From: Sphingopyxis sp. DBS4
GTDB taxonomy: Bacteria; Pseudomonadota; Alphaproteobacteria; Sphingomonadales; Sphingomonadaceae
Assembly (NCBI RefSeq): GCF_024628865.1
Contig: NZ_CP102384.1
Span: 569,001-633,000 of the forward strand
DNA length: 64,000 nucleotides
Reading direction: 5' to 3'
Of this stretch, positions 19,729-41,559 are shown in pieces. The translations under genes were made by a program, and so were the position numbers. Each line of letters opens with the position of its first letter. Positions within the stretch are counted from its first letter, which is position 1. The notes below the pieces were generated by a model. The model was given only the letters and a program-made list of their open reading frames with translations. It was not told the origin of the DNA and ran no database searches.

Positions 19729-20733
19729 ATGACCCGGGCGACGATCAAGGATGTTTCGCGCGTCGCGGGCGTGTCGATCAAGACCGTCTCGCGCGTCCTC
19801 AACAAGGAACGCTATGTCAGCGACGACATGCGGCAAAAGGTCGAGGAAGCCGTCGCGCGGCTCAATTATCATCCCAGCCTCGCCGCGCGCACGCTCGCGG
19901 GGCGGCGGTCGTTCCAGATCGGGCTGATCCACGACAACCCCAGCCCCTATTATATCTTCAACATGCAGGCCGGGGTCGGACAGCGCTGTCGCGAAGCCGA
20001 CTTCCGCATGATCGTCCAGCCGTGCGACATTAATTCGCCGGGGCTGGTCGACGACATCGGCGCGCTGATCGATCAGGCGCAGCTCGACGGCATCATCATG
20101 ACCCCGCCGGTGACCGACGTCGGCACCGCGCTCGCCGAGCTGTTCCGCCGCAGGATTCCCGTCGTTCGCGTCCAGCCGGGGACCGACCTCACCGCGACCT
20201 CCGCGGTCTATATCGACAATGTGCAGGCAGCCGACGACATGACCGCCTATCTGATTTCGCTCGGCCATCGCCGTATCGGGCTCGTCACCGGCCATGCCAA
20301 TTATTTCGCCAGCGGCCAGCGGCTGACCGGCTATCGGCAGGCGCTGCAGCGGGCGGGCATCGGCTTCGATGCGGCGCTCGTCTTTCCCGGCCAGTTCGAT
20401 TTTCCGTCGGGCGCCGCGGCGGCCGAGGCGCTGCTCGCCCTCGACGAACCGCCGACCGCGATCTTTGCGAGCAGCGACGAAATGGCCGCGGGCGTTCTCG
20501 CCGCCGCGCATCGCCGAGGCGTGTCGGTGCCCGGCCAATTGTCGGTCGCGGGCTTCGACGACACCGACCTTGCGCAGGTCGTCTGGCCGGCGCTGACGAC
20601 GATCCGCCAGCCGATCCGCGACCTCGGCTATGCCGCTGCCGATCTGCTGCTCGAATTCGGCGAACGGATCGAGCGGCGGCAATTGCCGCACGAATTGGTC
20701 GTGCGCGGGTCGACGGCGCCGCCGGGCCATTAA
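19729..20733 (+). CDS. LacI-family transcriptional regulator
   Basis: 334 residues. The ATG at 19729 starts directly at the HTH (TIKDVSRVAGVSIKTVSRVLN); the upstream in-frame extension lacks family similarity. The hinge and PBP1-like sugar-binding domain follow (RSFQIGLIHDNPSPYYIFNMQAG, RRIPVVRVQPG, AIFASSDEMAAGVL, LSVAGFDDTDLAQVVWPALTT). As first gene of the sugar locus it should repress the neighbouring transport and catabolic genes. Three copies of a TGACA-NCGN-TGTCA operator with the central CG typical of LacI sites occur at 21107, 22554 and 27789. The inducer is likely the locus sugar, perhaps sulfoquinovose or its product. Confidence 0.9.
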   Translation: MTRATIKDVSRVAGVSIKTVSRVLNKERYVSDDMRQKVEEAVARLNYHPSLAARTLAGRRSFQIGLIHDNPSPYYIFNMQAGVGQRCREADFRMIVQPCDINSPGLVDDIGALIDQAQLDGIIMTPPVTDVGTALAELFRRRIPVVRVQPGTDLTATSAVYIDNVQAADDMTAYLISLGHRRIGLVTGHANYFASGQRLTGYRQALQRAGIGFDAALVFPGQFDFPSGAAAAEALLALDEPPTAIFASSDEMAAGVLAAAHRRGVSVPGQLSVAGFDDTDLAQVVWPALTTIRQPIRDLGYAAADLLLEFGERIERRQLPHELVVRGSTAPPGH

Positions 20734-20785
20734 CCGTCGCCCCCGCGAAGGCGACGGCCTGAAAGTCGCGCTCAGCATCTCTTAT

Positions 20786-20870
20786 CTTCGTCATTCCCGC
20801 GAAAGCGGGAACCCAGAGTGGGTTCAGCCGACGCACGCTCTGGGTTCCCGCTTTCGCGGGAATGACGAAG
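20786..20870. repeat. Double-hairpin palindromic repeat, CCCGCGAAAGCGGG type
   Basis: Perfect 33-bp inverted repeat (20786-20818 with 20838-20870). Each arm contains its own small hairpin, CCCGC-GAAA-GCGGG, so the unit can fold as one long stem or as two short ones. It lies in the 421-base gap between the LacI and MFS genes. Confidence 0.9.
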
Positions 20871-20962
20871 GTGGGGAGGGACAGCTCTCCACCCCATTTC
20901 GGCCTCCGATCGCAATTGGCGCCGTGACGGCTGCTAACGACCGGAAGCGGACCTATCTTGCA

Positions 20963-21040
20963 TCGTCATCCCGGACTTGATCCGGGATCCATTCTCTCAG
21001 CGCCGGATGAATGGATCCCGGATCAAGTCCGGGATGACGA
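20963..21040. repeat. Palindromic repeat, CCGGACTTGATCCGG type
   Basis: Perfect 32-bp inverted repeat (20963-20994 with 21009-21040), 14-base loop. Each arm holds an inner imperfect palindrome around ACTTGAT. Same intergenic gap as the repeat at 20786; related copy at 27658 and a degenerate half copy near 38931-38955. Confidence 0.9.
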
Positions 21041-21154: not shown

Positions 21155-22402
21155 ATGGTGGCGCAAATCGCCGATAAACGCCGCTGGCTGCTGGTGGGAC
21201 TCGTCTTCGTCGCCATCGTCCTCAACTATGTCGACCGCCAGATTCTCGCACTCCTGAAGCCGACCCTCCAGGCCGAATTCGACTGGAGCGACCGCAATTA
21301 CAGCCACATGGCCTCGGCCTTTCAGTTCGCCGCCGCGCTCGCCTTTCTCGGCACCGGCTGGTTCATCGACAAGGTCGGGCTGCGCCGCGGCTTTGCGATC
21401 GGGGTCGGGGTGTGGAGCCTTGCGGGCATGGCGCACGCCTTCGCGACGACCGTCGCGGGCTTCGTCACGTCGCGTGCGGTGCTCGGCGCTGCCGAATCGA
21501 TCGGCACCCCGGCGGCGGTGAAGACCGCCGCGACCTATTTCAATGCGAAGGAGCGCTCGATCGTTCTCGGCCTCGGCGGCATCGCCCCCAATGTGGGGGC
21601 GATCCTGACGCCGTTGCTGATTCCGCTGATGGCGCTGATGTGGGGGTGGCAGTCGACCTTTCTGATCGCGGGCGGGCTCGGGCTCGTCTGGGTCGCGGTG
21701 TGGCTGATGGTGCGCATCCCCGAACAGCCCGGCGCCGCCGACGCCGCCGCGACGAAGATCGCATGGGGCAGCCTGCTGCGCGACCGCCGCCAATGGGCGG
21801 TAATCCTGGGGAAGGCGCTCACCGATCAGGTCTGGTGGTTCCTGCTCTTCTTCATGCCCGACCTCTTCCACCGCGTCTTCGGGCTGAGTCAGGGAACGCT
21901 CGGGCTTCCGGTCGCCTTCGTCTATTTCATGGCGGCGCTTGGCGGCATCACCGGCGGCTTCCTGCCGTCGCTGCTGATGACCCGCGGATGGAGCGTCAAC
22001 ACCGCGCGCAAGACGTCGATGCTGCTCTACGCCTTGCTGATCCTGCCGGTGCCGTTGCTCGTGCACGCCGACAGCGCGTGGGTCGCCGCCGCGATCCTCG
22101 GCCTCGGCCTCTTCGCGCATCAGGGGTTCTCGACCAATCTCTTCGGCCTCACCACCGATGTTTTTCCAGCAAAGATCGTCGGCTCGGTGATCGGTATCGG
22201 CGCCTTCGCGGGCAATCTGTCGGGCATGGCGATGATCGAGTTCGCGGGCTGGTCGCTCGACACCGGCCGTGGCTACATGCCGATGATGCTCATCTGCGCT
22301 TTCACCTATCTCGTCGCGCTCGCCGCAATCCACCTCATCCTGCCGCGCATCGTCGCGGTGGACGAGGAGGAAGATGGCGAGGCGCAGGTGCTGGCGCATT
22401 GA
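21155..22402 (+). CDS. MFS transporter, anion:cation symporter/hexuronate-like
   Basis: 415-residue inner-membrane carrier with about 12 hydrophobic segments. LNYVDRQILALLKP at the end of the first helix and GWFIDKVGLRRGF in the first cytoplasmic loop are typical of the ACS branch (ExuT, GudP), which moves acidic sugars and other organic anions. GGGGAGAG precedes the ATG. Preceded by a LacI operator and followed by the aldo/keto reductase-monooxygenase pair, it is the best candidate importer for an acidic sugar such as sulfoquinovose. That substrate is an inference from context. Confidence 0.88.
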   Translation: MVAQIADKRRWLLVGLVFVAIVLNYVDRQILALLKPTLQAEFDWSDRNYSHMASAFQFAAALAFLGTGWFIDKVGLRRGFAIGVGVWSLAGMAHAFATTVAGFVTSRAVLGAAESIGTPAAVKTAATYFNAKERSIVLGLGGIAPNVGAILTPLLIPLMALMWGWQSTFLIAGGLGLVWVAVWLMVRIPEQPGAADAAATKIAWGSLLRDRRQWAVILGKALTDQVWWFLLFFMPDLFHRVFGLSQGTLGLPVAFVYFMAALGGITGGFLPSLLMTRGWSVNTARKTSMLLYALLILPVPLLVHADSAWVAAAILGLGLFAHQGFSTNLFGLTTDVFPAKIVGSVIGIGAFAGNLSGMAMIEFAGWSLDTGRGYMPMMLICAFTYLVALAAIHLILPRIVAVDEEEDGEAQVLAH

Positions 22403-22490: not shown

Positions 22491-22553
22491 AACGTAAAAG
22501 ATTAGCTGCACCGTATAGAAACCCGCTTCCCATCCGTTAAACCATGGAGTATA

Positions 22554-22567
22554 TGACAGCGATGTCA
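22554..22567. promoter_or_regulatory. Putative LacI-family operator 2
   Basis: TGACAGCGATGTCA: perfect TGACA/TGTCA arms around GCGA. It overlaps three closely spaced in-frame ATG codons (22544, 22553, 22562) at the start of the aldo/keto reductase gene. Confidence 0.65.
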
Positions 22568-23464
22568 GATTATCTGCCCGCTCCCGCCCCCGTGACTCTC
22601 GCCGGCCATGAGGTCGCTCCCATCGCATGGGGCATGTGGCGCTTCGCCGGTGCCGACGTCGGCACTGCCCGCGCGCGCATCGACGCGGCGTTCGAGGCGG
22701 GGGTGACTCTCTTCGACACCGCCGACATCTACGGCTGCGACACCCCCGGCGGCTTCGGCTCGGCCGAGGCGCTGCTCGGCGAGGTCTTCGCCGAAGCGCC
22801 TGCCTTGCGCGACAAGATGCTGCTCGCGACCAAGGGCGGGATCATCCTCGGCGTGCCTTACGACAGCAGCGCGCCCTATCTCGCCTCGGCGATCGACATT
22901 TCGCTGAAGCGCCTGCGCACCGACCGTGTCGAACTGTGGCAGATCCACCGCCCCGACCTGCTCACCCATCCGCAGGAAGCGGCGCGCGCGCTCGAGGAAG
23001 CGCATCGCGCGGGCAAGATCGGCGCGATCGGCGTCTCGAATTTCACGCCGTCGCAGGCGGCGGCGCTCGCCAAATTTCTGCCGGTTCCGCTGGTCAGCCA
23101 CCAGAGCGAATTTTCGCCGCTTCACCTGAACCCGCTGTTCGACGGCATCTTCGACCAGTCGATGGCGGAGGGCATGACCTTCCTCGCCTGGTCGCCGCTC
23201 GGCGGCGGCCGGCTCGGCGATCCGGCCGACGAACGCGCGCGCGCCATCGCCGCGCTGCTCGACGCCAAGGCCGCCGAATATGACGTCTCGCGCGCCGCCG
23301 CGACCTATAGCTGGGTGATGGCGCATCCCGCCCGCCCGATCCCGATCGTCGGCACCCAAAATCCGGGCCGGATCAAGGAAATCCCGCAGGCTTTCGTGCC
23401 GCGCTGGACGCGCGCCGAATGGTACGCGGTGCTGCAAACTTCGATGGGGGAGAATCTGCCATGA
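22562..23464 (+). CDS. Aldo/keto reductase (YdhF-like; candidate SmoB-type 6-dehydroglucose reductase)
   Basis: 300-residue NAD(P)H-dependent oxidoreductase. The catalytic tetrad is seen as Asp and Tyr in FDTADIYG, Lys in LLATKGG and His in WQIHRPD; IGAIGVSNFTPSQ and PIVGTQNPGRI are family signatures. Starts at 22544, 22553 and 22562 are all in frame; 22562 is preferred because it begins the conserved region and has GGAG 12 bases upstream, but the operator overlapping it makes this uncertain. Its stop overlaps the start of an SsuD-like monooxygenase (ATGA). In the oxidative sulfoquinovose pathway, SmoB reduces the 6-oxo-glucose made by monooxygenase SmoC to glucose; the strict coupling suggests the same division of labour here. 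Confidence 0.85.
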   Translation: MSDYLPAPAPVTLAGHEVAPIAWGMWRFAGADVGTARARIDAAFEAGVTLFDTADIYGCDTPGGFGSAEALLGEVFAEAPALRDKMLLATKGGIILGVPYDSSAPYLASAIDISLKRLRTDRVELWQIHRPDLLTHPQEAARALEEAHRAGKIGAIGVSNFTPSQAAALAKFLPVPLVSHQSEFSPLHLNPLFDGIFDQSMAEGMTFLAWSPLGGGRLGDPADERARAIAALLDAKAAEYDVSRAAATYSWVMAHPARPIPIVGTQNPGRIKEIPQAFVPRWTRAEWYAVLQTSMGENLP

Positions 23465-24528
23465 CCGATCGCATGTGCGAAGTGAGCTGGTTTTCGGCGC
23501 TTTGCGACGACGACTATGAATTTCTCGGCGTCCCCGACCCGATGCTCAAATCGAGCTGGGAGCATTGCCGCGACATCGTGATGCAGGCGGACAGTTTGGG
23601 ATTCGACAATATCCTGCTCCCATCGGGCTATGCGCTCGGCATCGACACCACCGCCTTCGCCGCGGCGATCGCGACGATGGTCAAGCGCATCCGCCTGCTG
23701 ATGGCGGTGCGCATCGGCGAAAGCTGGCCGCCGCAGCTTGCGCGCCAGATCGCTACGATCGACCGTATCCTGGGCGGCCGGTTGACGGTCAACATCATCT
23801 CGTCGGACATGCCGGGCGAGACGATGGAGTCCGAACCGCGCTATCGCCGCACGGTCGAGGCGATGCATATCCTGAAGACGCTGCTCAATGGCGAGGCGCT
23901 CGACCATGACGGCGAGTTCTGGAAGCTGAAGCTCGATCCGCCGCGCATCGGCATGGTGTCGGGCAAGGCGCCGCCGCTCTATTTCGGCGGGCTTTCCCCC
24001 GCCGCGCGCGACGCCGCCGCGAAAGGCTGCGACGTCTTCCTGATGTGGCCCGACCGCGAGGAGGTGGTGAAGGAGATCATCGCCGACATGACCGCGCGCG
24101 CCGCCGCTTATGGCCGCACGCTCAAGTTCGGCTATCGCGCGCACATGATCGTCCGCGACACCGAGGCCGAGGCGCGCACCGCCGCCGACCGCCTGCTCTC
24201 GAAGCTCGACGCCGCCAAGGGCGCTGCGATCAAGGCCAAGTCGCTCGATTCGCAGTCGTTCGGCGTCAACGCGCAGGTCGCCTTGCGCGAGGCCGCATCC
24301 GACGACGGCTATGTCGAGGATAATCTGTGGACCGGCGTCGGCCGCGCCCGCTCGGGCTGCGGCGCCGCGATTGTCGGCGATCCCGATCAGGTGCTCGCGA
24401 AGCTCGCCCGCTATCAGGACATGGGCATCGAGGCGTTCATTTTGTCAGGCTACCCCCACGCGGCGGAGGCCGATCTCTTCGCCCGCCACGTCCTGCCGAA
24501 GATGACGCACGGGCCGCTGGCGCTCTGA
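23461..24528 (+). CDS. SsuD-like FMNH2-dependent monooxygenase (candidate sulfoquinovose monooxygenase)
   Basis: 355 residues of the bacterial luciferase-like fold, closest in pattern to alkanesulfonate monooxygenase: LGFDNILLPSG, RIRLLMAVRIGESWPPQLARQIATIDR, GGRLTVNII, DHDGEFW, PPLYFGGLSPAARDAAAKGCDVFLMW, FGYRAHMIVRDTEAEA. SsuD enzymes cleave C-S bonds of sulfonates to aldehyde and sulfite with FMNH2 and O2. Coupled to the aldo/keto reductase by a 4-base overlap and 10 kb from a sulfoquinovosidase, it is a strong candidate for a SmoC-like enzyme. The FMNH2 supplier is not adjacent; the FMN reductase at 40954 could fill the role. Sulfonate substrate inferred, luciferase-like monooxygenase certain. 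Confidence 0.87.
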   Translation: MTDRMCEVSWFSALCDDDYEFLGVPDPMLKSSWEHCRDIVMQADSLGFDNILLPSGYALGIDTTAFAAAIATMVKRIRLLMAVRIGESWPPQLARQIATIDRILGGRLTVNIISSDMPGETMESEPRYRRTVEAMHILKTLLNGEALDHDGEFWKLKLDPPRIGMVSGKAPPLYFGGLSPAARDAAAKGCDVFLMWPDREEVVKEIIADMTARAAAYGRTLKFGYRAHMIVRDTEAEARTAADRLLSKLDAAKGAAIKAKSLDSQSFGVNAQVALREAASDDGYVEDNLWTGVGRARSGCGAAIVGDPDQVLAKLARYQDMGIEAFILSGYPHAAEADLFARHVLPKMTHGPLAL

Positions 24529-25114: not shown

Positions 25115-26281
25115 CTACCCCGCCCACACCTGCGCATACAGCATCGCCATTTCTTCCGCATCGGGCACGCGCGGATTGTTCGCGGGCGACCCCGACGCCG
25201 CCGCCTGCGCGCACATCGTCGGGACCAGCGCCTCCCAGCGCGCCGCGTCGATACCCCACGCCGCCGGCCCCGGCACCTCGAGCTCGCGGTTGAGCGCCGC
25301 CAGTTCGTCGAGCAGCCGCGCCACCGCCGCCTGGTCGCCCTCCGTCTCGTCCGCCACCCCCATCGCCCGCGCGCAGTCGGCGTAGCGATGAAGCGCCGCG
25401 GGCGCCGACCACGCCGTCACCGCGGGAAGCAGCATCGCGTTCGACAAGCCGTGCGGGACATGGAAATGCGCGCCGATCGGCCGGCTCATCCCGTGAACCA
25501 GCGCGACCGAGCTGTTCGAGAAAGCGATTCCCGCCTGCGTCGCGCCCAGCATCATCGCCGCGCGCGCCGCCGCATCCATCGGGTCGCGGCACACGCGGCG
25601 CAGGTTCGGCGCGATCGCGCGCATCGCGAGCAGCGCCATGCCGTCGCTGAACGGATTCGCGCGCTTCGACACATAGGCCTCGATCGCGTGGGTCAGCGAA
25701 TCGATCCCGGTGTCGGCGGTCAGCCGCCGCGGCTTAGTGAAGGTCAGCTCATAATCGACCAGCGCCGCGACCGGCAGATAGGCGAGGCCGGGGCACAGCA
25801 TCTTCTCGTCGGTCGCCTCGTCGGTGATGATCGTGAAGCGCGTCGCCTCCGAACCCGTGCCCGCCGTCGTCGGGATCGCGATCACCGGCAGTCCCGGCGC
25901 GTCCTGCACATGCGGCGCCTTGTAGTCGGCCATCGCCCCGCCATGCTCGCCCAGCACCGCGATCGCCTTGGCGCTGTCGAGCGGGCTGCCGCCGCCGAAG
26001 CCGACGATGCAGTCGTGATCGCCCTCATGCAGACAGGCCACCCCGGCGTCGACCGACGCGACCGTCGGGTCGGGCACCGTGTCGGCAAAGACGCGCGCGG
26101 CGATCCCCGCCGCCGCCAGCCCGCCCACCAACTCCTCGACGCGCCCGTTGCCCAGCAGAAAGGCGTCGGTGACGATCAGCGGCCGCGCCAGCCCCAGCGT
26201 CGCCAGCACCTCGGGCAGCTCTTTCGATGCGCCCCCGCCGATGCGCAGGATGCGGGGCAAAGCGATGCTGGCGATACTCAA
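25115..26281 (-). CDS. Iron-containing alcohol dehydrogenase
   Basis: 388 residues of the Fe-ADH family. NAD-binding VGFGGGSPLDSAKAIAVL (~92-109) and PTTAGTGSEAT, then the metal region DTGIDSLTHAIEAYVS and HGMSRPIGAHFHVPHG with the conserved histidines. Such enzymes interconvert alcohols and aldehydes (1,3-propanediol, lactaldehyde, succinate semialdehyde and others). The start overlaps the stop of the upstream MFS gene by 4 bases, so it probably acts on that carrier's substrate. In a sulfo-sugar locus it could reduce or oxidise a C3/C4 (sulfo)aldehyde, but that is a guess. Confidence 0.88.
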   Translation of the reverse strand: MSIASIALPRILRIGGGASKELPEVLATLGLARPLIVTDAFLLGNGRVEELVGGLAAAGIAARVFADTVPDPTVASVDAGVACLHEGDHDCIVGFGGGSPLDSAKAIAVLGEHGGAMADYKAPHVQDAPGLPVIAIPTTAGTGSEATRFTIITDEATDEKMLCPGLAYLPVAALVDYELTFTKPRRLTADTGIDSLTHAIEAYVSKRANPFSDGMALLAMRAIAPNLRRVCRDPMDAAARAAMMLGATQAGIAFSNSSVALVHGMSRPIGAHFHVPHGLSNAMLLPAVTAWSAPAALHRYADCARAMGVADETEGDQAAVARLLDELAALNRELEVPGPAAWGIDAARWEALVPTMCAQAAASGSPANNPRVPDAEEMAMLYAQVWAG

Positions 26282-27612
26282 CTGATCATCTCCTCACGGA
26301 TCGAACTGCGCGCCATCCAGAACAGCGCCGAGGCGAGCGCGCCGAACATAATGAAGATCATCAGCGACCAGCGCACGCCCTCCGCTGACCCTAGCCCCAT
26401 CGGCCCGCTTAGAAAATCGCTGACCGCGCCGACGCCGAGCGGGCCGAGCCCCAGCCCGATCAGGTTGATGATGAACAGCAGCACCGCCGACGCGGTCGCG
26501 CGCGTCTGCGGCCGCACCAGTCCCTGCACCGCGGCGTAGCCCGGCCCGTACCAGAGCGTGTTGAGGATCGGCGGAAAGGCGAAGAGGATCAGCGCGGTCA
26601 CCGCCGAATCGACGAGCAGCGCGGCGACATAGAAAGGGATGCCGAGCAGGGTTGAAATCGCCGGGATGCCGACATAGGCGCGCAGGTCGCGCCCGCCATA
26701 GCGGTCGGCGAGCCAGCCGCCCAGCCACGTCCCGACCGCGCCGGTCAGCCCGAGCACGATGCCGAGCGCGACGCCGAGGAAGCCGGTCAGCCCCAGCCCG
26801 AAATCGGCTGCGATGCCGGTCAGCTCCTCGGCATGGTTGCGAAAGAAGAAGGGCGCGATGAAAGCCGCGGCGCCATAGCCGATGAACGCCTTGATCGCGG
26901 CGGCGAAGGCGATCAGCCAGAAGGTGCGCTTGCCGCGGATCTCCGCCATCGCGGTCTTGAAGTCGGGACGCGCGGCCTTCAGCACGGCGAGGTCGACATG
27001 CATCTGCCGTCGCGGCTCGCGCAACGTCGTCCAGGCGACGACCGCCATCAGCAGCCCCGGCAGCCCGGCGACCAGAAAGGCGGTCCGCCAGCCATGGGCG
27101 TCGGCGATCAGCCCGCCGAGCGCGAGCCCGAGCAGCCCGCCGAGCGGCGTGCCCAGCGAATAGAAGGCGAGAGCGGAGGCGCGCTTTTCGCGCGGCGTAT
27201 AATCGGTGATCAGCGAATGGGCGGGCGGGGTGCAGCCCGCCTCGCCGATCCCGACGCCGATGCGGCACAGCGTGAGCTGGACGAAATTCTGCGCATGGCC
27301 GCACGAGATGGTGAACAGGCTCCACAGCCCCGCCGCCGCCGCGATGATCCGCGGCCGGTGCCCCGTCTCGGCGTGGCGCGCGATCGGAATGCCGAGCACG
27401 GTGTAGAAGAGCGCGAAGGCCAGCCCGGTCATCACCCCGAGCTGCCAGTCGGCGAGATGGAGATCGTGCTTGATCGGCTCGGCGAGGATCGAGACGATCT
27501 GCCGGTCAAGGAAATTGAGGATATAGATGACGAGCAACACCGTCAGCGCATAGCGGCGATAGGCGGGCGATACCGGCGGAAGGGCGGGCGGGGCGGGGGA
27601 TTCGTCGTTCAT
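26278..27612 (-). CDS. MFS transporter, Spinster-like
   Basis: 444 residues, about 12 membrane segments. LNFLDRQIVSILAEPIKHDL, VGIGEAGCTPPAHSLITDY and LVRPQTRATASAVLLFIINLIGLGLGP are characteristic of the Spinster-like MFS group that is strongly expanded in sphingomonads. Substrates of the group are mostly unknown. It is cotranscribed with the iron alcohol dehydrogenase (4-base overlap) and divergent from the TIM-barrel isomerase; LacI operator 3 in the shared gap may control both directions. Confidence 0.88.
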   Translation of the reverse strand: MNDESPAPPALPPVSPAYRRYALTVLLVIYILNFLDRQIVSILAEPIKHDLHLADWQLGVMTGLAFALFYTVLGIPIARHAETGHRPRIIAAAAGLWSLFTISCGHAQNFVQLTLCRIGVGIGEAGCTPPAHSLITDYTPREKRASALAFYSLGTPLGGLLGLALGGLIADAHGWRTAFLVAGLPGLLMAVVAWTTLREPRRQMHVDLAVLKAARPDFKTAMAEIRGKRTFWLIAFAAAIKAFIGYGAAAFIAPFFFRNHAEELTGIAADFGLGLTGFLGVALGIVLGLTGAVGTWLGGWLADRYGGRDLRAYVGIPAISTLLGIPFYVAALLVDSAVTALILFAFPPILNTLWYGPGYAAVQGLVRPQTRATASAVLLFIINLIGLGLGPLGVGAVSDFLSGPMGLGSAEGVRWSLMIFIMFGALASALFWMARSSIREEMIS

Positions 27613-27657: not shown

Positions 27658-27736
27658 TCGTCACCCCGGACTTGATCCGGGGTCCATTCTTCCTTTGCCG
27701 GCCTGAATGGATGCCGGATCAAGTCCGGCATGACGA
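27658..27736. repeat. Palindromic repeat, CCGGACTTGATCCGG type
   Basis: Near-perfect inverted repeat (left arm from 27658, right arm ending 27736), with matched changes relative to the copy at 20963. It sits in the divergent gap just upstream of LacI operator 3, an unusual place for an element otherwise found behind genes. Confidence 0.88.
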
Positions 27737-27788
27737 GGGTGTTTCGCATTTGTCGGGCAGTTGGTTGACTCCCACCCCCACCACGATA

Positions 27789-27802
27789 TGACAACGCTGT
27801 CT
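27789..27802. promoter_or_regulatory. Putative LacI-family operator 3
   Basis: TGACAACGCTGTCT, 13 of 14 positions fitting TGACA-NCGN-TGTCA, 12 bases before the isomerase start codon and between divergent genes. Confidence 0.62.
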
Positions 27803-27814
27803 GAGAGGGGAATC

Positions 27815-28651: not shown

Positions 28652-28654
28652 CCC

Positions 28655-31726: not shown

Positions 31727-31727
31727 C

Positions 31728-33281: not shown

Positions 33282-33346
33282 GGCGTCACGCTAAGCGCAT
33301 CACAGCGGCATTGGTATTGCATAATGGGAATGATATGGTGCGCGGT

Positions 33347-34263
33347 ATGAACCTCCGCCGCCTTCGTCATTTCGACACGCTCTACCGTCTCGGCAGCTAT
33401 GCGCGCGCCGCCGACGAACTCGGCCTGACGCAATCGGCGCTGACCCGCTCGATCCAGAAGCTCGAGGAGGAACTGGGGACCACGCTGTTCGACCGCACCA
33501 CGCACTATGTGCGACCGACGAGCGATGCCGACCGCCTGATCCGCTCGGCGCGCGACGTCATCGCCGCTTCGGCGAACCTCGAACAGGAAGCGCGCGGGCT
33601 CGGCCAGCCGAGCAGCGGCACCGTCGCGGTCGGCGCCGGTCCTTATCCGCTGCAACCCCTGCTCACCGACGCGATCGCGCGCTTCGCCAAGGGGCATCCG
33701 GGGGTGCGCGTCACCGTCACCGGCGGACCGTCCGAGCAATTGCTCGAAACCCTCGTCGACCGCCGCCTCGATCTCGTCGTCTGCAATCGCGCGAAATTCG
33801 CCACGTCCGCCCACGCCGACGAAGTGCTGTGCATCCCGCTGCCGCCCGAGCCGCTGGTGCTCGTCTGCGCGCTCGATCACCCGCTCGCGCGGGGGAGGGC
33901 GACAGTGGCGCTTTCCCCTGGGCGCTCCCGCGCCCCGCGCCGGGCAGCAATTTTCCGCGCGCGATCCGCACGCGCTTCGCCGCCGGACAGTTCCCCGATT
34001 ACGAACTCGATTCCACCGCCGCCTGCCTCGACATGGCGCGCAGCGGTCGCGCGATCACCGTCGTGCCGCGGCGTCTTGCGCTGCGCAGCGGCCTCGCGAT
34101 GATCGCCCTCCCGCCGTCGGAGGTCACCCGCGACGCCATCCACCTCCTGCGCAACCGTAGTCGCAGCGCGCTCGTCGCCGCCTTCGTCGCGGTGCTCAAG
34201 GATGTCGCTCAGGCCGAGGGGATCCCGGCGAACAGCGCCGCGTCCGGCGACTCGGCGCGATAG
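33347..34263 (+). pseudogene. LysR-family regulator interrupted by a frameshift
   Basis: The first ~185 codons from ATG 33347 are a normal LysR HTH and effector domain (MNLRRLRHFDTLYRLGSYARAA..., TQSALTRSIQKLEEELG, VAVGAGPYPLQPLL). After LDHPLARG the sequence in this frame becomes nonsense and stops at 34102, while the -1 frame continues with the expected GAFPWALPRPAPGSNFPRAI, DYELDSTAACLDMARSG and VVPRRLA up to the stop at 34263. The switch falls at the G-run GGGGGAGGG (33891-33899), which suggests loss of one base or a sequencing error. ATG 33335 is an alternative start. The 3' end overlaps the 3' end of the sulfoquinovosidase gene on the other strand by 55 bases. Divergent from glpD, which it may once have controlled. 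Confidence 0.8.
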
Positions 34264-36218
34264 AAGACCGGCGGCTCCCCGAACGGCGCCGCCACGGTCG
34301 CATCGCCGCCGCCCGCGTAAGTCTTGCCCGACCAGACATGCACCCACTCGGCCCCCGCGGGCAGATAGGTCGTCCACTCGCTTTTCCCCGCCGCGACCAC
34401 CGGCGCGACGAGCAGGTCGGGGCCGAGCAGATAGGCGGTTTGGATCGCATAGGTTTCGGGATCGTCCTCGAAATGCAGGAACAGCGGCCGCTGCACCGGC
34501 AACCCCGTCTCCGACGCTTCCCGCGACAACCGCCGGACATAGGGCGCCAGATGCGCGTAAATCCGCGTCATCTTCGCGAAATGCGCGAGCAGTTCGGGAC
34601 TGTCGTCATATTGGACATTCTGCCGCGGCCGGTTGCCCTCGTGCGTGCGGATCATCGATGTGAAGGCCGACATCTCGGCCCAGCGCATCGCCAGTTCGGC
34701 ATCGCGCACCGTGTCGAACAGGCTCGTATAGCCGCCGCAATCGCTGTGATGATGCGCGTTGCCCAACATTCCCGCCGACAGCGCCGCACAGATCACCGTG
34801 CCGATCCCGTCGTGGCGGCTGAAATCGACCGCCTGGTCGCCCGCCCACAGCATCGGACAATGCCCCTGCACCCCGGCGGCGCCCGAGCGCATGAACACCA
34901 TCATCTCGCCCGTCTGCCCGCGTCCTGCGATCCCCTTGGCATTCACTTCGCCCCATAGCGCGGGCCAGCGGTTGTGCGCGGTCATCCCGCTCTCGCCGTT
35001 CGCCAGCCGCACGTCGACGGGCAGATATTCGCCGAAATCGGCCATCCAGCCCGACAGGCCGAAATCGATCATCTTCTCGCCGATGATCGTGTCGGCGAAC
35101 CAGTCCGCCGCCGCCGGATTGGTGAAGTCGACATGCGCGCAATCGAACTCGCCGAAATCGATCACATAAGGCTCGTCGCGGTCGGGCCGCATCACCAACA
35201 GGCCCTGCGCCGCCGCTTCGGCATAGAGCGGCCCGTCGACCGCAAGATAGGGATTTACATAGCCGAGGAAGCGAATGCCGCGTTCGCGCAGCTCCGCGAT
35301 CCGCGCCGGCAGATCGGGATAGCGGTCCGCATTCCACTGCCAGTCCCAGAAGAGGCGATTGCCGAAGCTGGTAATGCGCAGGCCCACCCAGTCCTCGCAC
35401 CAGAGCCCCGACACCGCGACCCCGGCCTCCTCAAAGGCCTTGAGCCGCGCAAAGCTCTCGTCGCCGTCCTTGAGCCCGATCACCGCGCCCTTCAGCAGCC
35501 ATTCGGGCAGCGGCGGCTGGCGCCCGAACCGCGCCGACAGCGCCGAGACGAGGTCGGTGAAACGCGGGCGCGCCCACAGCTCGATCCGCGCCGGAATCTC
35601 CCAGACCTCGACTTCGTGGAAATCGGCATTGCGAAAATCGAATGCCGCATAGGCAAAGCTGTCGACGTGCAGTGCATAGCGCCGCGAACTCACATAGGTC
35701 GGCTGCGGATAATTAGTGTGGGCATAGCTGCCGCCGCCGCCCTTGCGATGCGCCTCGACCTGCCGGAACAGGGAGGACGAGGGGTCGCGGCCGTTGCCGG
35801 GCTCGCTCGACCACAGCGGAAAATGCCGGCCGCGCAGGTCGAAATAGGAGAATTGCTCGCCGCCGCCCCACACATGCTCGCCCGCCTCCGCGGGAACGCG
35901 CAGCCACAGCCGGTTGAGCGCCGGGTCGAGCGCCTTCAGCGCGATCGCCGCGTTGTTGTCGTCGTCCGACACCGCCGCTTCGAGCAGCCACGGCGCGCCG
36001 TGGCTTTCGGCAAAGCGCACGACATCGCCCTGAATCTCGGCATAGGCCAGCGCCCGCCGCTCGATCATGTCCTGCGTTACGTCGAAATGGCCGAGCGCCC
36101 CGTGGACATGTGGCTCACCGCGCCCGACGAAAAAACAGGGGGCATCCGCGCGGTGCGACAGGATCGTCCGCCCGCCGACGCGGAGAGCAAAGCCGGTGTC
36201 GAGCGCGTCGAGCGCCAT
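34209..36218 (-). CDS. GH31 alpha-sulfoquinovosidase (YihQ/SmoI type)
   Basis: 669 residues; ATG 36218 has AAAGGA nine bases upstream (ATG 36236 does not). GH31 catalytic residues: nucleophile Asp394 (WMADFGEYLP) and acid/base Asp461 (WAGDQAVD), 67 residues apart as in E. coli YihQ. The sulfonate-recognition set is Lys250, Glu275, Arg288 and Trp291, the K-E-R-W version known from Agrobacterium SQase with the same spacing, where YihQ has Q-Q-R-W. Other YihQ-like runs are GYVNPYLA, TSMIRTHEGNRP and PPVFYRA. It releases sulfoquinovose from sulfoquinovosyl glycerol or sulfolipid. No signal peptide, so cytoplasmic. This gene is the firmest anchor for calling the locus sulfoquinovose-related. Confidence 0.92.
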   Translation of the reverse strand: MALDALDTGFALRVGGRTILSHRADAPCFFVGRGEPHVHGALGHFDVTQDMIERRALAYAEIQGDVVRFAESHGAPWLLEAAVSDDDNNAAIALKALDPALNRLWLRVPAEAGEHVWGGGEQFSYFDLRGRHFPLWSSEPGNGRDPSSSLFRQVEAHRKGGGGSYAHTNYPQPTYVSSRRYALHVDSFAYAAFDFRNADFHEVEVWEIPARIELWARPRFTDLVSALSARFGRQPPLPEWLLKGAVIGLKDGDESFARLKAFEEAGVAVSGLWCEDWVGLRITSFGNRLFWDWQWNADRYPDLPARIAELRERGIRFLGYVNPYLAVDGPLYAEAAAQGLLVMRPDRDEPYVIDFGEFDCAHVDFTNPAAADWFADTIIGEKMIDFGLSGWMADFGEYLPVDVRLANGESGMTAHNRWPALWGEVNAKGIAGRGQTGEMMVFMRSGAAGVQGHCPMLWAGDQAVDFSRHDGIGTVICAALSAGMLGNAHHHSDCGGYTSLFDTVRDAELAMRWAEMSAFTSMIRTHEGNRPRQNVQYDDSPELLAHFAKMTRIYAHLAPYVRRLSREASETGLPVQRPLFLHFEDDPETYAIQTAYLLGPDLLVAPVVAAGKSEWTTYLPAGAEWVHVWSGKTYAGGGDATVAAPFGEPPVFYRAESPDAALFAGIPSA

Positions 36219-36248
36219 GGGCGAATATCCTTTCATCGCGAATCTTTG

Positions 36249-36381: not shown

Positions 36382-38700
36382 TTAGAAGTTCACCCGCCCG
36401 GTGACGCCGACATAGCGTTCGGCGTCGCGCGGGGTGATCTGGCGCATGAACGAGGTACCGTTCGGGATGCGCTGGATGACGAACTGCTTGTCGGTGATGT
36501 TCTTGACCAGGAACGACAGCGCATATTTGTCGTCGGCGGTGCGCAGCGTGATCCCCGCATCCCAGATCGCATAGGGGCTCTGAAAAGCGTTGGGGTTCTG
36601 GTTGATGTCGAAATTGGTCTTGCTCTGATAGGTGAGCGAGCTGTTCAGATCGACGTTGAAGCCGTCGAGGTTCAGCGGCAGGCGCCAGTCCATCGTCACC
36701 GTACCCTTGTATTTGGGGGCAAAGGGCAATGGCTTGCCGTTGATCGCATCGGCACAGGTCACCGCCGCGCCGACCGGGCAGATGAAGGTGTTGATGTGCG
36801 CGTCGGTGTAGTTGAAGCCGCCCGAAAGCTGGAAATCGTCGGTGATCGCGGCGTTGAAATCCATCTCGATGCCGCGCGTCGACACCGTACCGGCGTTGGT
36901 CAGGCGGGTGACGACCTGCCCCGCGACGATGTCGAGGAAGTTCGCCTGATAATTGTCGTACTTGGCATAGAAGGCCGCGAGGTTCAGCGTCAGCTTGCGG
37001 TCGAACAGCCGCATCTTGAGCCCCGCCTCATAGGCGTTCGACTTTTCGGGATCGATGCGGCCGGTATCGCGCGCCTGCATGTTGAAGAAGACGTTGAGCG
37101 CCGGTCCCTTGTAGCCGCGGGTGTACATGCCATAGGCCATGATGTCGTCGGTCACGTCATATTGCAGCCCGGCGTTGCCCGACCAGCCATGATCCTTGAT
37201 CGACCCGTCGGCACTGAAGGCGGGGTTCACCCCGCTGAACGCGGTCGTCTGGGTCGAGGTGCGGGCGAAGTCATAGCTGACCTTGTCCTCGGTATAGCGC
37301 AGACCCAGGATGCCGCGGAACGCGTCGGTGAAGTTGAGCGTGCCCTGGCCGAACGCCGAATAGCTGGTCAGCGTCGTCGTGAAATCGGCGTTGCCCTCGT
37401 TCGTCGTATAGGTCGACGACCCGGCGGCGCACGGCGTCAGCCCACCCACGGTCGGCAGCGTCGAGGCGGTGCAGGCGGTGACCGTGCGGTTGAAGAAGTC
37501 GACCTCCTTCGTGTGGTAGTAATAAAGCCCCGCAACATATTCGAAGAATTGCGGGTTCGACGAGGCGATGCGCAATTCCTGCGTGAACTGGTCGAACTTC
37601 AGGTCGCCGCGGTCGTGTGAAAGCACGTCGCCCGACGCAGTGCCGGTGTTGACGTAGGAGGGCGCGTCCGACCGGAAATCGCCGTCGCGGACCTGGAAAT
37701 TATACCAGTGGCGATAGGCGGTGATCGAGGTCAGCGTCGCGCCGCCGAAATCATAGTCGATCTGCCCCGACACGCCGCTGTTCTTGTCCTTGGTATAGGG
37801 GTCGAGGTCGTTGTCGATGTTCTTGTTCTTGCCGTCGAGCGTCAGCGGCGCGAGGCTCGGCTTGAACACCGCATCGTTGAACGCGGAGGAAAAGACGGTG
37901 CCGATGCTGTCGGCATAGCCATTGTCGCTGTTCTTCGAATAGTCGGCGATCAGCGTGATCTTCAGCGCGTCGGTCGGCTCGGCGATCAGCTTGCCGCGCA
38001 CGCCCCAATGCTCATATCCGTTGATCTTGTGGCCGTTGAACACGTTGCGGCCGTTGCCGTCATATTGCGACCAGAAGCCGGTGAGCGACGCCTTGACGCC
38101 GTCGCCGAGCGCGCCGCCGACGCTGCCGCGGATGCGATACTCATTGCCCTCGTACCAGGCGGCGTCGACATAGCCGCCGAGCGCATCGTCGGGCTCGCGC
38201 GTCACGATGTTGATCACGCCCGCGCTGGCGTTCTTGCCGAACAGGCTGCCCTGCGGCCCGCGCAGCACTTCGATGCGCTCGACATCGAGGAAGTCCGACG
38301 TCTGCTGCCCGGTGCGGGCATAGACGACGCCGTCGATCACCGTCGACACCGACGGTTCGACCCCCGACGAAAAGCTGATCGTGCCGACGCCGCGGATCGA
38401 CAGCGCCGAATCCTTGTTGGTGTTGCCTTTGCGGAAGGTCAGCGTCGGGACGCGCTGGAAAAGCTGTTCGGCCGAATTGACGTTGGCGCGCTCGAGCATG
38501 TCGCCCGACACGACCGAGATGGCGACGGGCACGTCCTGCAGATTCTGCGCGCGCTTCTGCGCGGTGACGATGATGTCGTTGTTGGCGAAGGGCGCGTCGG
38601 CTGCTGCCGCGGCTTCCTGCGCGGCGGCGGGCGCGGCCAAGGCCGCGGCGCCCAGCACGGACGACAGGAACAACGATTTTTTGAACGGCGAAAACTTCAT
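36382..38700 (-). CDS. TonB-dependent receptor
   Basis: 772 residues: signal peptide (MKFSPFKKSLFLSSVLGAAALAAPAAAQ), TonB box NDIIVTAQKRAQ, plug with VERIEVLRGPQGSLFGKNASAG and NIVTREPDD, and a barrel ending in VGVTGRVNF. GGGGAGG precedes the ATG. It is upstream of, and co-oriented with, the sulfoquinovosidase gene, with a repeat between them, so it probably imports sulfoquinovosyl glycerol or a related glycoside across the outer membrane. Two cysteine pairs (TACTAST..CAAG, FICPVGAAVTCAD) lie in predicted extracellular loops. Confidence 0.93.
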   Translation of the reverse strand: MKFSPFKKSLFLSSVLGAAALAAPAAAQEAAAAADAPFANNDIIVTAQKRAQNLQDVPVAISVVSGDMLERANVNSAEQLFQRVPTLTFRKGNTNKDSALSIRGVGTISFSSGVEPSVSTVIDGVVYARTGQQTSDFLDVERIEVLRGPQGSLFGKNASAGVINIVTREPDDALGGYVDAAWYEGNEYRIRGSVGGALGDGVKASLTGFWSQYDGNGRNVFNGHKINGYEHWGVRGKLIAEPTDALKITLIADYSKNSDNGYADSIGTVFSSAFNDAVFKPSLAPLTLDGKNKNIDNDLDPYTKDKNSGVSGQIDYDFGGATLTSITAYRHWYNFQVRDGDFRSDAPSYVNTGTASGDVLSHDRGDLKFDQFTQELRIASSNPQFFEYVAGLYYYHTKEVDFFNRTVTACTASTLPTVGGLTPCAAGSSTYTTNEGNADFTTTLTSYSAFGQGTLNFTDAFRGILGLRYTEDKVSYDFARTSTQTTAFSGVNPAFSADGSIKDHGWSGNAGLQYDVTDDIMAYGMYTRGYKGPALNVFFNMQARDTGRIDPEKSNAYEAGLKMRLFDRKLTLNLAAFYAKYDNYQANFLDIVAGQVVTRLTNAGTVSTRGIEMDFNAAITDDFQLSGGFNYTDAHINTFICPVGAAVTCADAINGKPLPFAPKYKGTVTMDWRLPLNLDGFNVDLNSSLTYQSKTNFDINQNPNAFQSPYAIWDAGITLRTADDKYALSFLVKNITDKQFVIQRIPNGTSFMRQITPRDAERYVGVTGRVNF

Positions 38701-39138: not shown

Positions 39139-40059
39139 CTAACCCGCCGCCACGACCTTCCGCACATGCGCCAGGCACGTGGCGGTCTCGCGCGCGACGT
39201 CGGCGTTCAGCCAGGCGACGATTTCGGGCGTCGGGCCGATGTCGGGTTCGAGCAGGCCGAAGTCGAGCTCGACCGGCGGAGTGAAGGGGCGGATCGCGAC
39301 GCCCAGCCGGTGGAACAGCGGCGCGCTGAACGGTTCGGCGATCGACACGCCCAGCCCCGCCTCGACGAAGGCATAAAGGGTGTGCGACTGCTGCGTCTCG
39401 AGTCGGCGCGAGATCGCGATGCCCGATGTTTCGAGCACGACGTCGATTCTGTTCCACAGCGCGTCGGCCTCGTGCATCGGGCCGATGAATTCCTCGCCCG
39501 CCAGATCCTCGACTGTCACACGCTCGCGCGCCGCTAGCACATGATTGGCCGGAAGCGCGCAGACATATTCGGCGCGCGCGAGCGGGGTCGATCGGATGCC
39601 CTCGCGGCCCGGCGCGTCGATCCCGATGCCCAGATCGGCCTGCCCCAGGAACACCCGCTCCTCGATCGCGCGCTGGCCGAGCGACTCGACCGTGATCTTG
39701 ATCTCGGGATAGAGGATGCGGAAGCGCGCGATCACCGCGGGCAGGATCGCCGTCGCGATCGCCGCCAGCGCCGCGATCCGCACCGTGCCGACCGGATGCG
39801 CGCGGATGCGTCGCGCCGCCTGGTCGAGCAGGTCGAGCCCGGCATAGCTTCGCCGCACCGCTTCATAGAGCGCCTGCGCCTGCGCGGTCGGGTGGACGCG
39901 CGCGCCGCGCCGGTCGAACAGGCGAAAGCCGACCGCGCGCTCCATGTCGGCGATCAGCCGGCTCACCGACGGCTGGCTGATGTTGAGCATCGTCGCGGCG
40001 GCGGTGATGCCCCCGCTCATCATGACGGCGCGAAACGCCTCGACCTGTCTCATCCTCAT
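39139..40059 (-). CDS. LysR-family transcriptional regulator
   Basis: 306 residues. ATG 40059 is chosen because the HTH begins at once (MRMRQVEAFRAVMMSGGITAAATML); an upstream in-frame extension of 45 residues has no family character. HTH: ISQPSVSRLIADMERAVGFRLFDRR. Effector domain: VRIAALAAIATAILPAVIARF, LGQADLGIGIDAP, GLGVSIAEPFS. The pattern resembles LysR proteins controlling catabolism of octopine or D-amino acids, but the position between the TonB receptor and the divergent dioxygenase/FMN reductase pair suggests it regulates those. Confidence 0.88.
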   Translation of the reverse strand: MRMRQVEAFRAVMMSGGITAAATMLNISQPSVSRLIADMERAVGFRLFDRRGARVHPTAQAQALYEAVRRSYAGLDLLDQAARRIRAHPVGTVRIAALAAIATAILPAVIARFRILYPEIKITVESLGQRAIEERVFLGQADLGIGIDAPGREGIRSTPLARAEYVCALPANHVLAARERVTVEDLAGEEFIGPMHEADALWNRIDVVLETSGIAISRRLETQQSHTLYAFVEAGLGVSIAEPFSAPLFHRLGVAIRPFTPPVELDFGLLEPDIGPTPEIVAWLNADVARETATCLAHVRKVVAAG

Positions 40060-40159
40060 AAGCCATAGTATAGACGTATGACCGGCGGATGCAATTCGAT
40101 TGGATGCGATGGATGACTCTGCGCTACGTGGCACTTTAGACAACATCGGGAGAGTGAAG

Positions 40160-40924
40160 ATGGATTTCTCCGCCCAGCGCGAACAATTCGCCACCGAAGG
40201 CTATGCGGTCTTCGAACGCATCCTCGAAGGCCCGCTCCTCGACCTGCTGCGCGAGGAATGCGGCCGCGTCATCGAACGTGAGGACGCCCGCCTCGACGCG
40301 CTCGGCGTCGAGGTCGACGGCATCAGCCACAAGGGCAAGCGCTATTTCGCCGGCGAATGCCAGCGCCGGCAGCCCGACCTGCGCCGGATGCTGTTCAGCG
40401 AGACGATGGCCGACATCTGCCGCGCGACGCTCGGCGACGATGCTTATTTCTTCTACGACCAATATGTCGTCAAAGGCGCCGACAAGGGCATGCCGTTCAG
40501 CTGGCATCAGGATTCGGGCTATGTCGTCGGCAACGGCGGCCCTGCCGACCACAAGCCCTATCTCACCTGCTGGTGCACGCTCGACGACACGACGGTCGCG
40601 AACGGTACGGTGCGCATTCTGCCCTTCTCGCAGGCGCCCGGAACGCGCGAGGGCATCGTTCCGCATAGCCGCCAACCCGGGAGCAACGACCTCGTCGGCT
40701 ACACCGGCGACAGCGAGGGGGTGACGCTCGAAGTCCCGGCGGGCAGCGTCGTCGCTTTCTCCAGTCTCGCGCTCCACGCGACCGGATCGAACTCGACCCC
40801 GAACATGCGCCGCGTCTATCTGGCGCAATATTCGCCCGAGCCGATCCTCAATCCCGGCACCAACCACCTGCGCCGCAACGCCATCGCCTTCCTGCGCGGC
40901 GGCAGCCAGGTCACGTTCAATTGA
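40160..40924 (+). CDS. PhyH-family Fe(II)/2-oxoglutarate-dependent dioxygenase
   Basis: 254 residues. ATG 40160 follows GGGAGAG. Double-stranded beta-helix dioxygenase with the metal facial triad His116-x-Asp118 (FSWHQDSGYV) and His206 (LALHATGSN), and a 2-oxoglutarate-binding Arg at 217/218 (NMRRVYLAQYSPEP). PhyH-like enzymes hydroxylate diverse small molecules. It overlaps or nearly touches an FMN reductase gene and is divergent from a LysR gene. A second, oxygenative way of opening a sulfonated substrate is conceivable since Fe/2OG sulfoquinovose dioxygenases are known, but nothing in the sequence proves it. Confidence 0.85.
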   Translation: MDFSAQREQFATEGYAVFERILEGPLLDLLREECGRVIEREDARLDALGVEVDGISHKGKRYFAGECQRRQPDLRRMLFSETMADICRATLGDDAYFFYDQYVVKGADKGMPFSWHQDSGYVVGNGGPADHKPYLTCWCTLDDTTVANGTVRILPFSQAPGTREGIVPHSRQPGSNDLVGYTGDSEGVTLEVPAGSVVAFSSLALHATGSNSTPNMRRVYLAQYSPEPILNPGTNHLRRNAIAFLRGGSQVTFN

Positions 40925-40953
40925 CAGGATGGGCAACTGATGGGGCGGGGCAG

Positions 40954-41559
40954 GTGACGGGCACGCGCCCCCGTATCGTCGCGCTCGGCGGCAACGCGAC
41001 CGCCGGCGGTTCGGCCGAGCGGCTGCTGCGCCACGCGCTGGCGTGCTGTGAGGCGCGGGGCGCCGACAGCCTGCTGCTGGCGGGCGATGCGATCGACCTT
41101 CCGCTCTATGCGCCGCACCTCAGCGAACGCTGCGACAAGGCGCGGGCGCTGGTCGCCGCGCTTCGCGGCGCCGACGGGGTCATCGTCGCGTCGCCCGCCT
41201 ATCACGGCACCGTATCGGGGGTGGTGAAGAATGCCCTCGACTATGCGCAGGATCTGGTTGCCGACGCGCAGCCCTATTTCGACGGGCGCGCCGTCGGGTT
41301 GATCGCGGTCGCGGGCGGATGGCAGGCGGCGGGCAGCACGCTTGCGACCTTGCGCTCGATTACCCATGCCCTGCGCGGCTGGCCGACGCCGATGGCGGTG
41401 ACCGCCAATTCGAGCCAGCCGCTCTTCGACGCCGACGGTGTGCTCGTCGATCAGGCGATCGCGGCGCAACTCGACATCATGACCGGCCAGGTCGTCGGCT
41501 TCGCGCGGATGAAGCGCGCTTATGCCGACAATCCGCACAAGGCGGCGGCGTTCGCCTGA
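40954..41559 (+). CDS. NADPH-dependent FMN reductase (flavodoxin-like)
   Basis: 201 residues with the SsuE/FMN reductase pattern: RIVALGGNATAGGSAERLL phosphate loop, DGVIVASPAYHGTVSGVVKNALDY flavin loop. The start is uncertain: GTG 40954 is taken; TTG 40921 would overlap the dioxygenase stop. The enzyme should supply reduced FMN to a two-component monooxygenase. The only such monooxygenase in the window is the SsuD-like protein at 23461, so this gene helps tie both ends of the locus together. Confidence 0.85.
   Translation: MTGTRPRIVALGGNATAGGSAERLLRHALACCEARGADSLLLAGDAIDLPLYAPHLSERCDKARALVAALRGADGVIVASPAYHGTVSGVVKNALDYAQDLVADAQPYFDGRAVGLIAVAGGWQAAGSTLATLRSITHALRGWPTPMAVTANSSQPLFDADGVLVDQAIAAQLDIMTGQVVGFARMKRAYADNPHKAAAFA

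Follow-up and report, generated by a model that had tools for sequence, protein, structure and literature searches.

The window analyzed here is a stretch of 64,000 nucleotides from Sphingopyxis sp. DBS4 (contig NZ_CP102384.1, positions 569,001 to 633,000), whose genome comprises 4.9 Mb in 5 contigs. Positions 19,699 to 41,559 of the window carry genes assigned to the breakdown of sulfoquinovose (SQ), and among them lies a cassette encoding an FGGY kinase, a GlpD-like dehydrogenase, and an FAD enzyme resembling alkyl-dihydroxyacetone phosphate (alkyl-DHAP) synthase, AGPS; these three are referred to below as the trio. On balance, we lean toward reading these genes as two units within one locus: a pathway of oxidative SQ desulfonation (sulfo-SMO; unit 1) and a separate cassette for a 1-substituted glycerol, not free glycerol (unit 2). 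The genes listed in an earlier note on this DNA, namely GH31, an aldo/keto reductase (AKR), an SsuD-like monooxygenase (LLM), an FMN reductase, a TonB receptor, two MFS carriers, a LacI regulator, and GlpD- and kinase-like genes, were all present and in place (Table 1). Absent from that note were an iron-containing alcohol dehydrogenase (Fe-ADH), a TIM-barrel protein, the AGPS-like FAD enzyme, two LysR genes, and a PhyH-family protein.

To place these genes, 166 stretches with relatives of the LLM enzyme, which resembles SmoC, were surveyed, and the best 80 of the 166 were used for locus counts. Genes were scored as co-occurring in the 80 SmoC loci at an identity of at least 40% over more than 40% of the query, many of the loci ending at contig ends. 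L numbers denote homologous loci compared, and G numbers denote sampled genomes; L098 is Novosphingobium EMRT-2, and L100 is G175.

Table 1. Genes of the locus in window coordinates. Fractions refer to the 80 SmoC loci; SQGro, sulfoquinovosyl glycerol.
Gene	Unit	Position	Strand	Basis and occurrence
LacI-family regulator	1	19699..20733	+	PF00356+PF13377; start 19729 also possible; 61/80
MFS carrier 1 (MFS1), presumed SQ/SQGro importer	1	21155..22402	+	PF07690; MFS1-like in 64/80
AKR, SmoB/SquF-like, putative 6-dehydroglucose reductase	1	22544..23464	+	PF00248; 76/80
FMNH2-dependent SQ monooxygenase (LLM), SmoC/SquD-like	1	23461..24528	+	Open reading frame open from 23419
Fe-ADH	-	25115..26281	-	PF00465; 14/80, 2 of these without the cassette
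MFS carrier 2 (MFS2)	2	26278..27612	-	PF07690; 81% to MFS in EMRT-2 cassette
TIM-barrel sugar isomerase/epimerase-like protein	2	~27809..28651	+	Related proteins annotated as sugar phosphate isomerase/epimerase, PF01261 in some
FGGY kinase, glycerol-kinase-like, altered glycerol pocket	2	28777..30204	-	Family matches, residue alignment
AGPS-like FAD enzyme	2	30323..31756	-	Structure-family scores, catalytic residues
GlpD-like FAD dehydrogenase	2	31728..33281	-	PF01266+PF16901; 3da1 317 bits
LysR regulator	2	33311..34263	+	Frameshifted, two frames; intact in L013
GH31 sulfoquinovosidase	1	34209..36236	-	PDB matches, YihQ-family model, recognition residues; 26/80
TonB-dependent receptor	1	36382..38700	-	PF00593+PF07715; TonB receptor in 50/80
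LysR regulator (second)	-	39139..40194	-	PF00126 from residue 48 of the reading frame, PF03466; 74% in EMRT-2 SQ locus
PhyH-family Fe/2OG oxygenase	-	40100..40924	+	PF05721; near SmoC/sulfoquinovosidase-type genes in L097, L098
PF03358 NADPH-FMN reductase, presumed monooxygenase partner	1	40921..41559	+	19/80; immediately after SmoC in several

Sulfoquinovose pathway genes

By protein similarity, the SQ part of the locus can be assigned firmly to the sulfo-SMO type. The top PDB matches of GH31, the sole PF01055 (GH31) match of the genome, were the Agrobacterium 'YihQ' structures 5ohy and 5ohs (934 and 932 bits), followed by 8r56 (731), 6pnr (707), and E. coli YihQ (659), and the first GH31 beyond the sulfoquinovosidase group reached 148 bits only. 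With 868 bits, the protein also exceeded the 553-bit cut-off of the YihQ-family model in NCBIfam. The recognition residues that the earlier note had reported were located at K256, E281, R294, W297, and Y503, which we take to be the sulfonate/substrate recognition motif of sulfoquinovosidases; together with the catalytic D400 and D467, they align one-to-one with 5ohs/5ohy. The LLM enzyme matched 7olf and 7oh2 (386 and 384 bits) better than SsuD-type structures (232 and 201 bits); we take both to be SmoC, their PDB labels naming a methanesulfonate/alkanesulfonate enzyme. These labels, which do not name SQ, would leave room for a GH31/LLM pair acting on a different substrate, but all sulfoquinovosidase recognition residues are present and the top match is SmoC-type, so we regard such a substrate as highly improbable. 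The AKR matched two structures equally in the PDB sequence comparison (4r9o, 144.4 bits; 7bbz, 143.6 bits), of which 7bbz is presumably SmoB. Its stop codon overlaps the ATG of the LLM gene, as noted earlier (ATGA at 23461-23464), which makes 23461 the probable start of the LLM gene.

In the predicted pathway, the TonB receptor and an MFS carrier would import SQ glycosides, from which GH31 would free SQ. The SmoC-like oxygenase and the PF03358 reductase would then cut the C-S bond of SQ, giving 6-dehydroglucose and sulfite, and the AKR would turn 6-dehydroglucose into glucose. The gene identities are read from sequence, and the reactions are those expected from characterized relatives.

An oxidative SQ desulfonation locus with TonB and MFS genes, as the earlier note had described it, is supported by sequence. 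The new composition claimed for it did not hold: a TonB/MFS/LacI/AKR/SmoC set is a common feature of the 80 loci, which are of sphingomonad, caulobacteral, and other origin. The window monooxygenase is 92-98% identical to those of L002-L013 (labeled Sphingopyxis, Sphingomonadaceae, or Sphingomonadales), which places the genome with Sphingopyxis, and the same SQ core occurs in the named replicons L097-L099, L114, and L115. Unit 1 is a known kind of pathway in its usual sphingomonad form, TonB/MFS/LacI included. With the Agrobacterium sulfo-SMO system (SmoI/SmoC/SmoB/SmoA), it shares a GH31 with sulfoquinovosidase recognition residues, a SmoC-like monooxygenase, and an AKR that may be SmoB-like. 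Agrobacterium imports by an ABC importer, whereas the window has a TonB receptor and MFS carriers, and it differs further in its PF03358 reductase and its PhyH and Fe-ADH genes.

Passages of PMC9594981 and PMC12890257 describe the sulfo-ASMO pathway characterized in Novosphingobium aromaticivorans and place SsuE-type reductases, which the earlier note had listed within the new composition, in many such clusters. The core enzymes and the taxonomic order are shared with N. aromaticivorans (SquD/SquF) and with the Sphingomonas GH188-type clusters, as far as the passages of PMC9594981 and PMC10755693 go. In contrast to N. aromaticivorans, which is said in those passages to have no flavin reductase of its own, the window has one, along with the embedded AGPS cassette. 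The Sphingomonas Leaf17 sulfo-SMO cluster, listed by Kaur et al. in a section of PMC10755693 that places GH188 in the SDR superfamily, has GH188 where the window has GH31. In the gene map of the 80 loci, GH31 was found in 28 and a Gfo/Idh/MocA-type gene in 33, with both in none and neither in 19; because it is complementary to GH31, the latter gene is presumed to be the GH188 sulfoquinovosidase, although its annotation in L097 and L114 is Gfo/Idh/MocA and not the SDR superfamily given in that section. PMC12890257 ranks SQ with nature's most abundant sulfur compounds, and in the freshwater incubations described in PMC13372026 the predominant degraders included Novosphingobium, to which this bacterium is related.

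An AGPS-like enzyme and an altered kinase

The novel part of the locus is the AGPS cassette, which is located between GH31 and Fe-ADH and consists of MFS2, the TIM-barrel gene, the trio, and a LysR gene, with the trio on one strand at 28777-33281. For the FAD enzyme, AGPS was the top-scoring solved family by sequence (192/176 bits, compared with 79-110 for 2-hydroxyacid dehydrogenases). Its residues R267, R338, Y394, and H431-433 correspond to Arg419, Arg515, Tyr578, and His615-617 of AGPS; R267, Y394, and H431-H433 were invariant in 39/39 aligned sequences, and R338 was conserved in only 22 of the 39. The protein has HHHG where 3pm9 has EHG. The eukaryotic AGPS of ether-lipid synthesis shares the R419, R515, Y578, and H615-H617 equivalents, whereas the protein here is bacterial, has 477 residues, and stands in a catabolic genetic setting. 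The name GlcD/glycolate oxidase, the top NCBIfam match yet far under its cut-off, was rejected in favor of AGPS, which the sequence comparison prefers.

The kinase differs from glycerol kinase in its pocket. Taking R83, E84, W103, Y135, D245, Q246, and F270 as the glycerol contacts of GlpK (E. coli numbering), the window kinase keeps R83, W103, and D245-Q246, and E84, Y135, and F270 are replaced by A86, Q127, and V255; the partner of Y135 is the least certain, as some 10 residues are deleted next to this position. We scored FGGY matches with alignments of more than 330 residues, the window included, with some loci omitted as repeats and the L011 copy missed. All 25 AGPS-linked kinases (22 distinct) were changed at these positions (E84 to A/S/T, Y135 to Q/P, F270 to V/T/A), and none of the eight kinases not linked to AGPS was; among these eight are the other GlpK of this genome and kinases adjacent to SQ loci. 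The catalytic D/Q was present in 33/33. The change is also found in EMRT-2, and Cupriavidus metallidurans has E84 replaced by S. In Shinella, Paracoccus, and Enterococcus, whose AGPS homologues are more distant, the adjacent kinases are of another FGGY type and stand outside this count.

The cassette kinase had glycerol kinase as its top PDB match but scored under the NCBIfam GlpK cut-off (TIGR01311, 316 vs 590 bits). Likewise, the GlpD-like enzyme was under the PRK12266 cut-off (283 vs 360 bits), with GlpD/alpha-glycerophosphate oxidase (3da1) as its top PDB match, and it retains the equivalents of R54, Y55, H233, R317, R332, and K354, presumably the glycerol-phosphate contacts of GlpD. Outside the locus, the genome has one more GlpK-like gene and one more GlpD-like gene. 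The cassette 'glycerol kinase' and 'GlpD' probably do not act on glycerol, and these names would be a natural misannotation.

The cassette is not tied to one place. The trio and the TIM-barrel gene occurred together in 12/80 SmoC loci. Strains that have the cassette include Sphingopyxis panaciterrae DSM 27164 (L010) and Sphingobium boeckii DSM 25079 (L015). In L007 (Sphingopyxis soli BL03) and L012 (Root154), Fe-ADH is present and the cassette is absent, and some 40 bases separate the GH31 stop codon from the start of Fe-ADH. When four SQ-locus proteins from 15 loci were placed in an unrooted tree, L007 paired with L006 (support 0.979), which has the cassette, and L012 paired with L010 (0.722); this suggests that the cassette can be gained and lost at a single site. 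The SQ locus of EMRT-2 has no cassette (GH31 80%, TonB receptor 79%, LysR 74%, and PhyH 91% identical); the plasmid that bears this locus has the entire cassette some 170 kb from it, next to genes for LacI and an MFS protein, indicating an autonomous unit. The trio genes are also clustered in L100, L104, L105, L130, and L136.

These results bear on the claim of the earlier note that the glycerol genes had been added to use the aglycone, that is, that the GlpD- and glycerol-kinase-like genes simply consume the glycerol of SQGro. The claim fits other sphingomonads, in which GlpD/GlpK genes with intact glycerol contacts accompany SQ loci: glpD and glpK directly follow smoC on N. pentaromativorans pLA3, L034, L037, L040, L053, L076, L077, and L081 have GlpD- and/or GlpK-like genes, but no AGPS, next to SmoC, and the five kinases scored from these loci keep the contacts. 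The top PDB matches of the cassette proteins also agree with it. However, in this window the kinase contacts are lost, both proteins score below the cut-offs of the GlpK and GlpD models, the genome has separate GlpK- and GlpD-like genes, the cassette is autonomous, and the AGPS-like enzyme would be left unexplained; moreover, the SQ-type locus of G175 has the trio plus a second GlpD/GlpK pair within about 20 kb. Based on the kinase residues and the extra genomic glpK and glpD, we rejected the use of the aglycone as the function of the cassette and consider it quite unlikely.

Two details of the cassette were examined separately. A minus-strand open reading frame at 27719-28801, opposite the TIM-barrel gene, was rejected, being without a family match, and the TIM-barrel protein itself had no Pfam match. 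The frameshift in the cassette LysR gene would be a sequencing error or decay.

Distribution and possible substrates of the cassette

Trio orthologues are rare across the class and phylum samples. An AGPS orthologue of at least 54% identity was found in 7/385 genomes of the class sample, and 2/398 genomes of the phylum sample had one (E <= 1e-90, the window's own included). Among 36 genomes of the same genus, AGPS occurred together with SmoC of at least 92% identity in 10 and alone in one (an 85% complete draft), and that SmoC occurred alone in none. Five of the seven class genomes carried SmoC of at least 65% identity or a 64% GH31, a count that includes the window's own genome and two genomes of the same genus and has no class-wide SmoC background rate as a control. 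Of these seven, four (G000, G175, G242, and G356) have the kinase next to AGPS, and six have the GlpD-like gene there. In the stretch of G116 that was read, AGPS stood alone, and neither G116 nor G242 had either SQ marker. G123 and G227 have AKR-SmoC and GlpD-AGPS and no GH31 match, and in G356 a distance of 30 kb separates the trio from SmoC, AKR, and the gene presumed to be GH188.

G175, which belongs to another alphaproteobacterial family, has within 20 kb the trio (58-74%), PhyH (80%), LysR, GH31 (63%), and a TonB receptor (69%), together with an AMP-binding acyl-CoA-ligase-type enzyme and an aldehyde dehydrogenase. Adjoining are the second GlpD/GlpK pair, an MFS gene 77% identical to MFS2 and located between glpK-like and YeiH/sulfolactate-dehydrogenase-like genes, and YeiH. 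SmoC was not seen in the 60 kb read, and the best match in the G175 genome was 29%. Some G175 neighbors could be sulfo-Entner-Doudoroff and sulfolactate genes, which is tentative because the dehydratase scored above the cut-off for arabinonate dehydratase and the match to sulfolactate dehydrogenase stayed below its own. The acyl-CoA-ligase-type gene adjoins GH31 in G175 (L100 15809-17434) and in EMRT-2 (L098 4830-6473), which suggests that sulfolipid fatty acids are also used. Beside the G175 trio (L100 5672-6718) is a PF04116 fatty-acid-hydroxylase-superfamily membrane protein that resembles alkylglycerol monooxygenase by eye and has no NCBIfam match.

A larger, less acidic kinase pocket, a glycerol-phosphate dehydrogenase, and an AGPS-like enzyme would make good sense together if the starting compound were a 1-substituted glycerol. 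For unit 2, all of whose reactions we infer, the FGGY kinase would phosphorylate the free end of R-O-CH2-CHOH-CH2OH, oxidation at C2 by the GlpD-like enzyme would yield R-O-DHAP, and from this the AGPS-like enzyme would expel R-OH by flavin-DHAP adduct chemistry, freeing DHAP. The leading candidate for the substrate is SQGro or another glyceryl glycoside from thylakoid lipid, which suits the genetic setting; the main alternative is 2,3-dihydroxypropanesulfonate (DHPS). An alkyl-glycerol would be best for the enzyme family, but the FGGY kinase is less suited to it. Catabolic AGPS chemistry in which SQGro or DHPS (with sulfite leaving) is phosphorylated, oxidized at C2, and split through a flavin adduct to DHAP, with variants using other kinases or dehydrogenases, is possible though doubtful; if true, it would release SQ or sulfite independently of a glycosidase and an oxygenase.

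Two points weigh against this interpretation of the cassette. SQGro is already served by GH31, and the fold of the FAD enzyme is slightly nearer D-lactate dehydrogenase than AGPS. The latter would agree with a 2-hydroxyacid dehydrogenase of the D-lactate/glycerate type in a cassette for another sugar-acid or polyol, but the sequence score and the HHHG/Tyr residues point to AGPS, and we consider such a dehydrogenase rather unlikely.

Degradation of DHPS by the cassette would proceed through phosphorylation, C2 oxidation to sulfo-DHAP, and AGPS-type expulsion of sulfite to give DHAP, a new C-S cleavage. Sulfite beside a ketone is, on chemical reasoning, a good leaving group and better for an AGPS-like enzyme, the anionic substituent suits the loss of the acidic E84, trio genomes often carry SQ markers, and the G175 relative of MFS2 lies near YeiH and sulfolactate-dehydrogenase-like genes. 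Nevertheless, no new conserved basic residue was identified in the pocket by eye, the trio also occurs in genomes that have neither SQ marker, and no such route was among the matches listed in our literature search; DHPS degradation is thus unlikely. No paper joining SQ with alkyl-DHAP-type enzymes was among those matches either, which is not a claim of its absence from print.

SQGro or another glyceryl glycoside remains our first choice for a cassette whose closest described counterpart is the GliR operon of Pseudomonas aeruginosa (PA3026-PA3024). By its description in passages of PMC8151288, this operon has the same FAD-binding oxidoreductase (the proposed former of alkyl-glycerone phosphate), GlpD homologue, and FGGY kinase. 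It differs in its AraC-type GliR, YegS lipid kinase, and phospholipase C, in place of which the window has MFS2, the TIM-barrel gene, LysR, and the SQ locus. According to those passages, the operon is activated together with genes for a lipid kinase and a phospholipase C, its orthologues are clustered in a restricted set of strains, and its deletion gave no growth phenotype under the conditions tried, which is neutral with respect to ether lipids. Their authors proposed in silico a conversion of glycerol to alkyl-glycerone phosphate. Ether-lipid synthesis of this kind by the window cassette is very unlikely, as its kinase is not glycerol-adapted and it has a carrier and is surrounded by catabolic genes. 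The window kinase residues also appear to argue against the glycerol step drawn for PA3026-PA3024, in a comparison made by description and not with the PA3024 sequence. The embedded trio thus offers a concrete hypothesis for an operon without assigned function in several proteobacterial lineages, PA3026-PA3024 among them according to that description.

Related gene sets extend further. G143 and G323 have a 36%-identical AGPS homologue together with GlpD-like genes; the intervening gene in G323 is a DAGK/YegS-type lipid kinase (Pfam), and its G143 counterpart looks alike by eye. Operons with AGPS-like and FGGY kinase genes (L134, L135, and L131) were seen in Shinella and Paracoccus with a sugar ABC transporter, Fe-ADH/glycerol dehydrogenase, and SDR, and in Enterococcus gilvus with glycerol dehydrogenase and a glycerol-3-phosphate-responsive antiterminator; they form a wider unexplained family. 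Erythritol catabolism (EryA/EryB/EryC) presumably shares the FGGY kinase, GlpD-like enzyme, and TIM-barrel protein and is not known to include an AGPS-like enzyme.

Accompanying genes and flanks

The top NCBIfam match of MFS1 was a galactonate-transporter family, under its cut-off. Fe-ADH, which adjoins GH31 even in the cassette-free L007 and L012, has no counterpart in the known SQ pathway. The PhyH protein has an HQD...H iron motif by eye and is 91% identical to the EMRT-2 gene and 65% to a gene on Sphingobium yanoikuyae pKN1, both near sulfoquinovosidase-type/SmoC genes; a 51% homologue in L128 lies amid genes resembling a sugar ABC transporter by eye.

A search of the genome, run without a positive control, found no sulfite-oxidase-like gene (SorA, a label given by eye). 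A YeiH-like putative sulfite/sulfate exporter (cluster c5, labeled by eye) occurs in 40/80 loci, in many Sphingopyxis to the left of LacI. The window has none at that position; the genome contains two PF03601 genes at other places. To the left of 19699 are a PAP2 gene and an enolase-superfamily gene, and to the right of 41559 are amidohydrolase, beta-lactamase-fold, dipeptidase, and arginine-catabolism genes.

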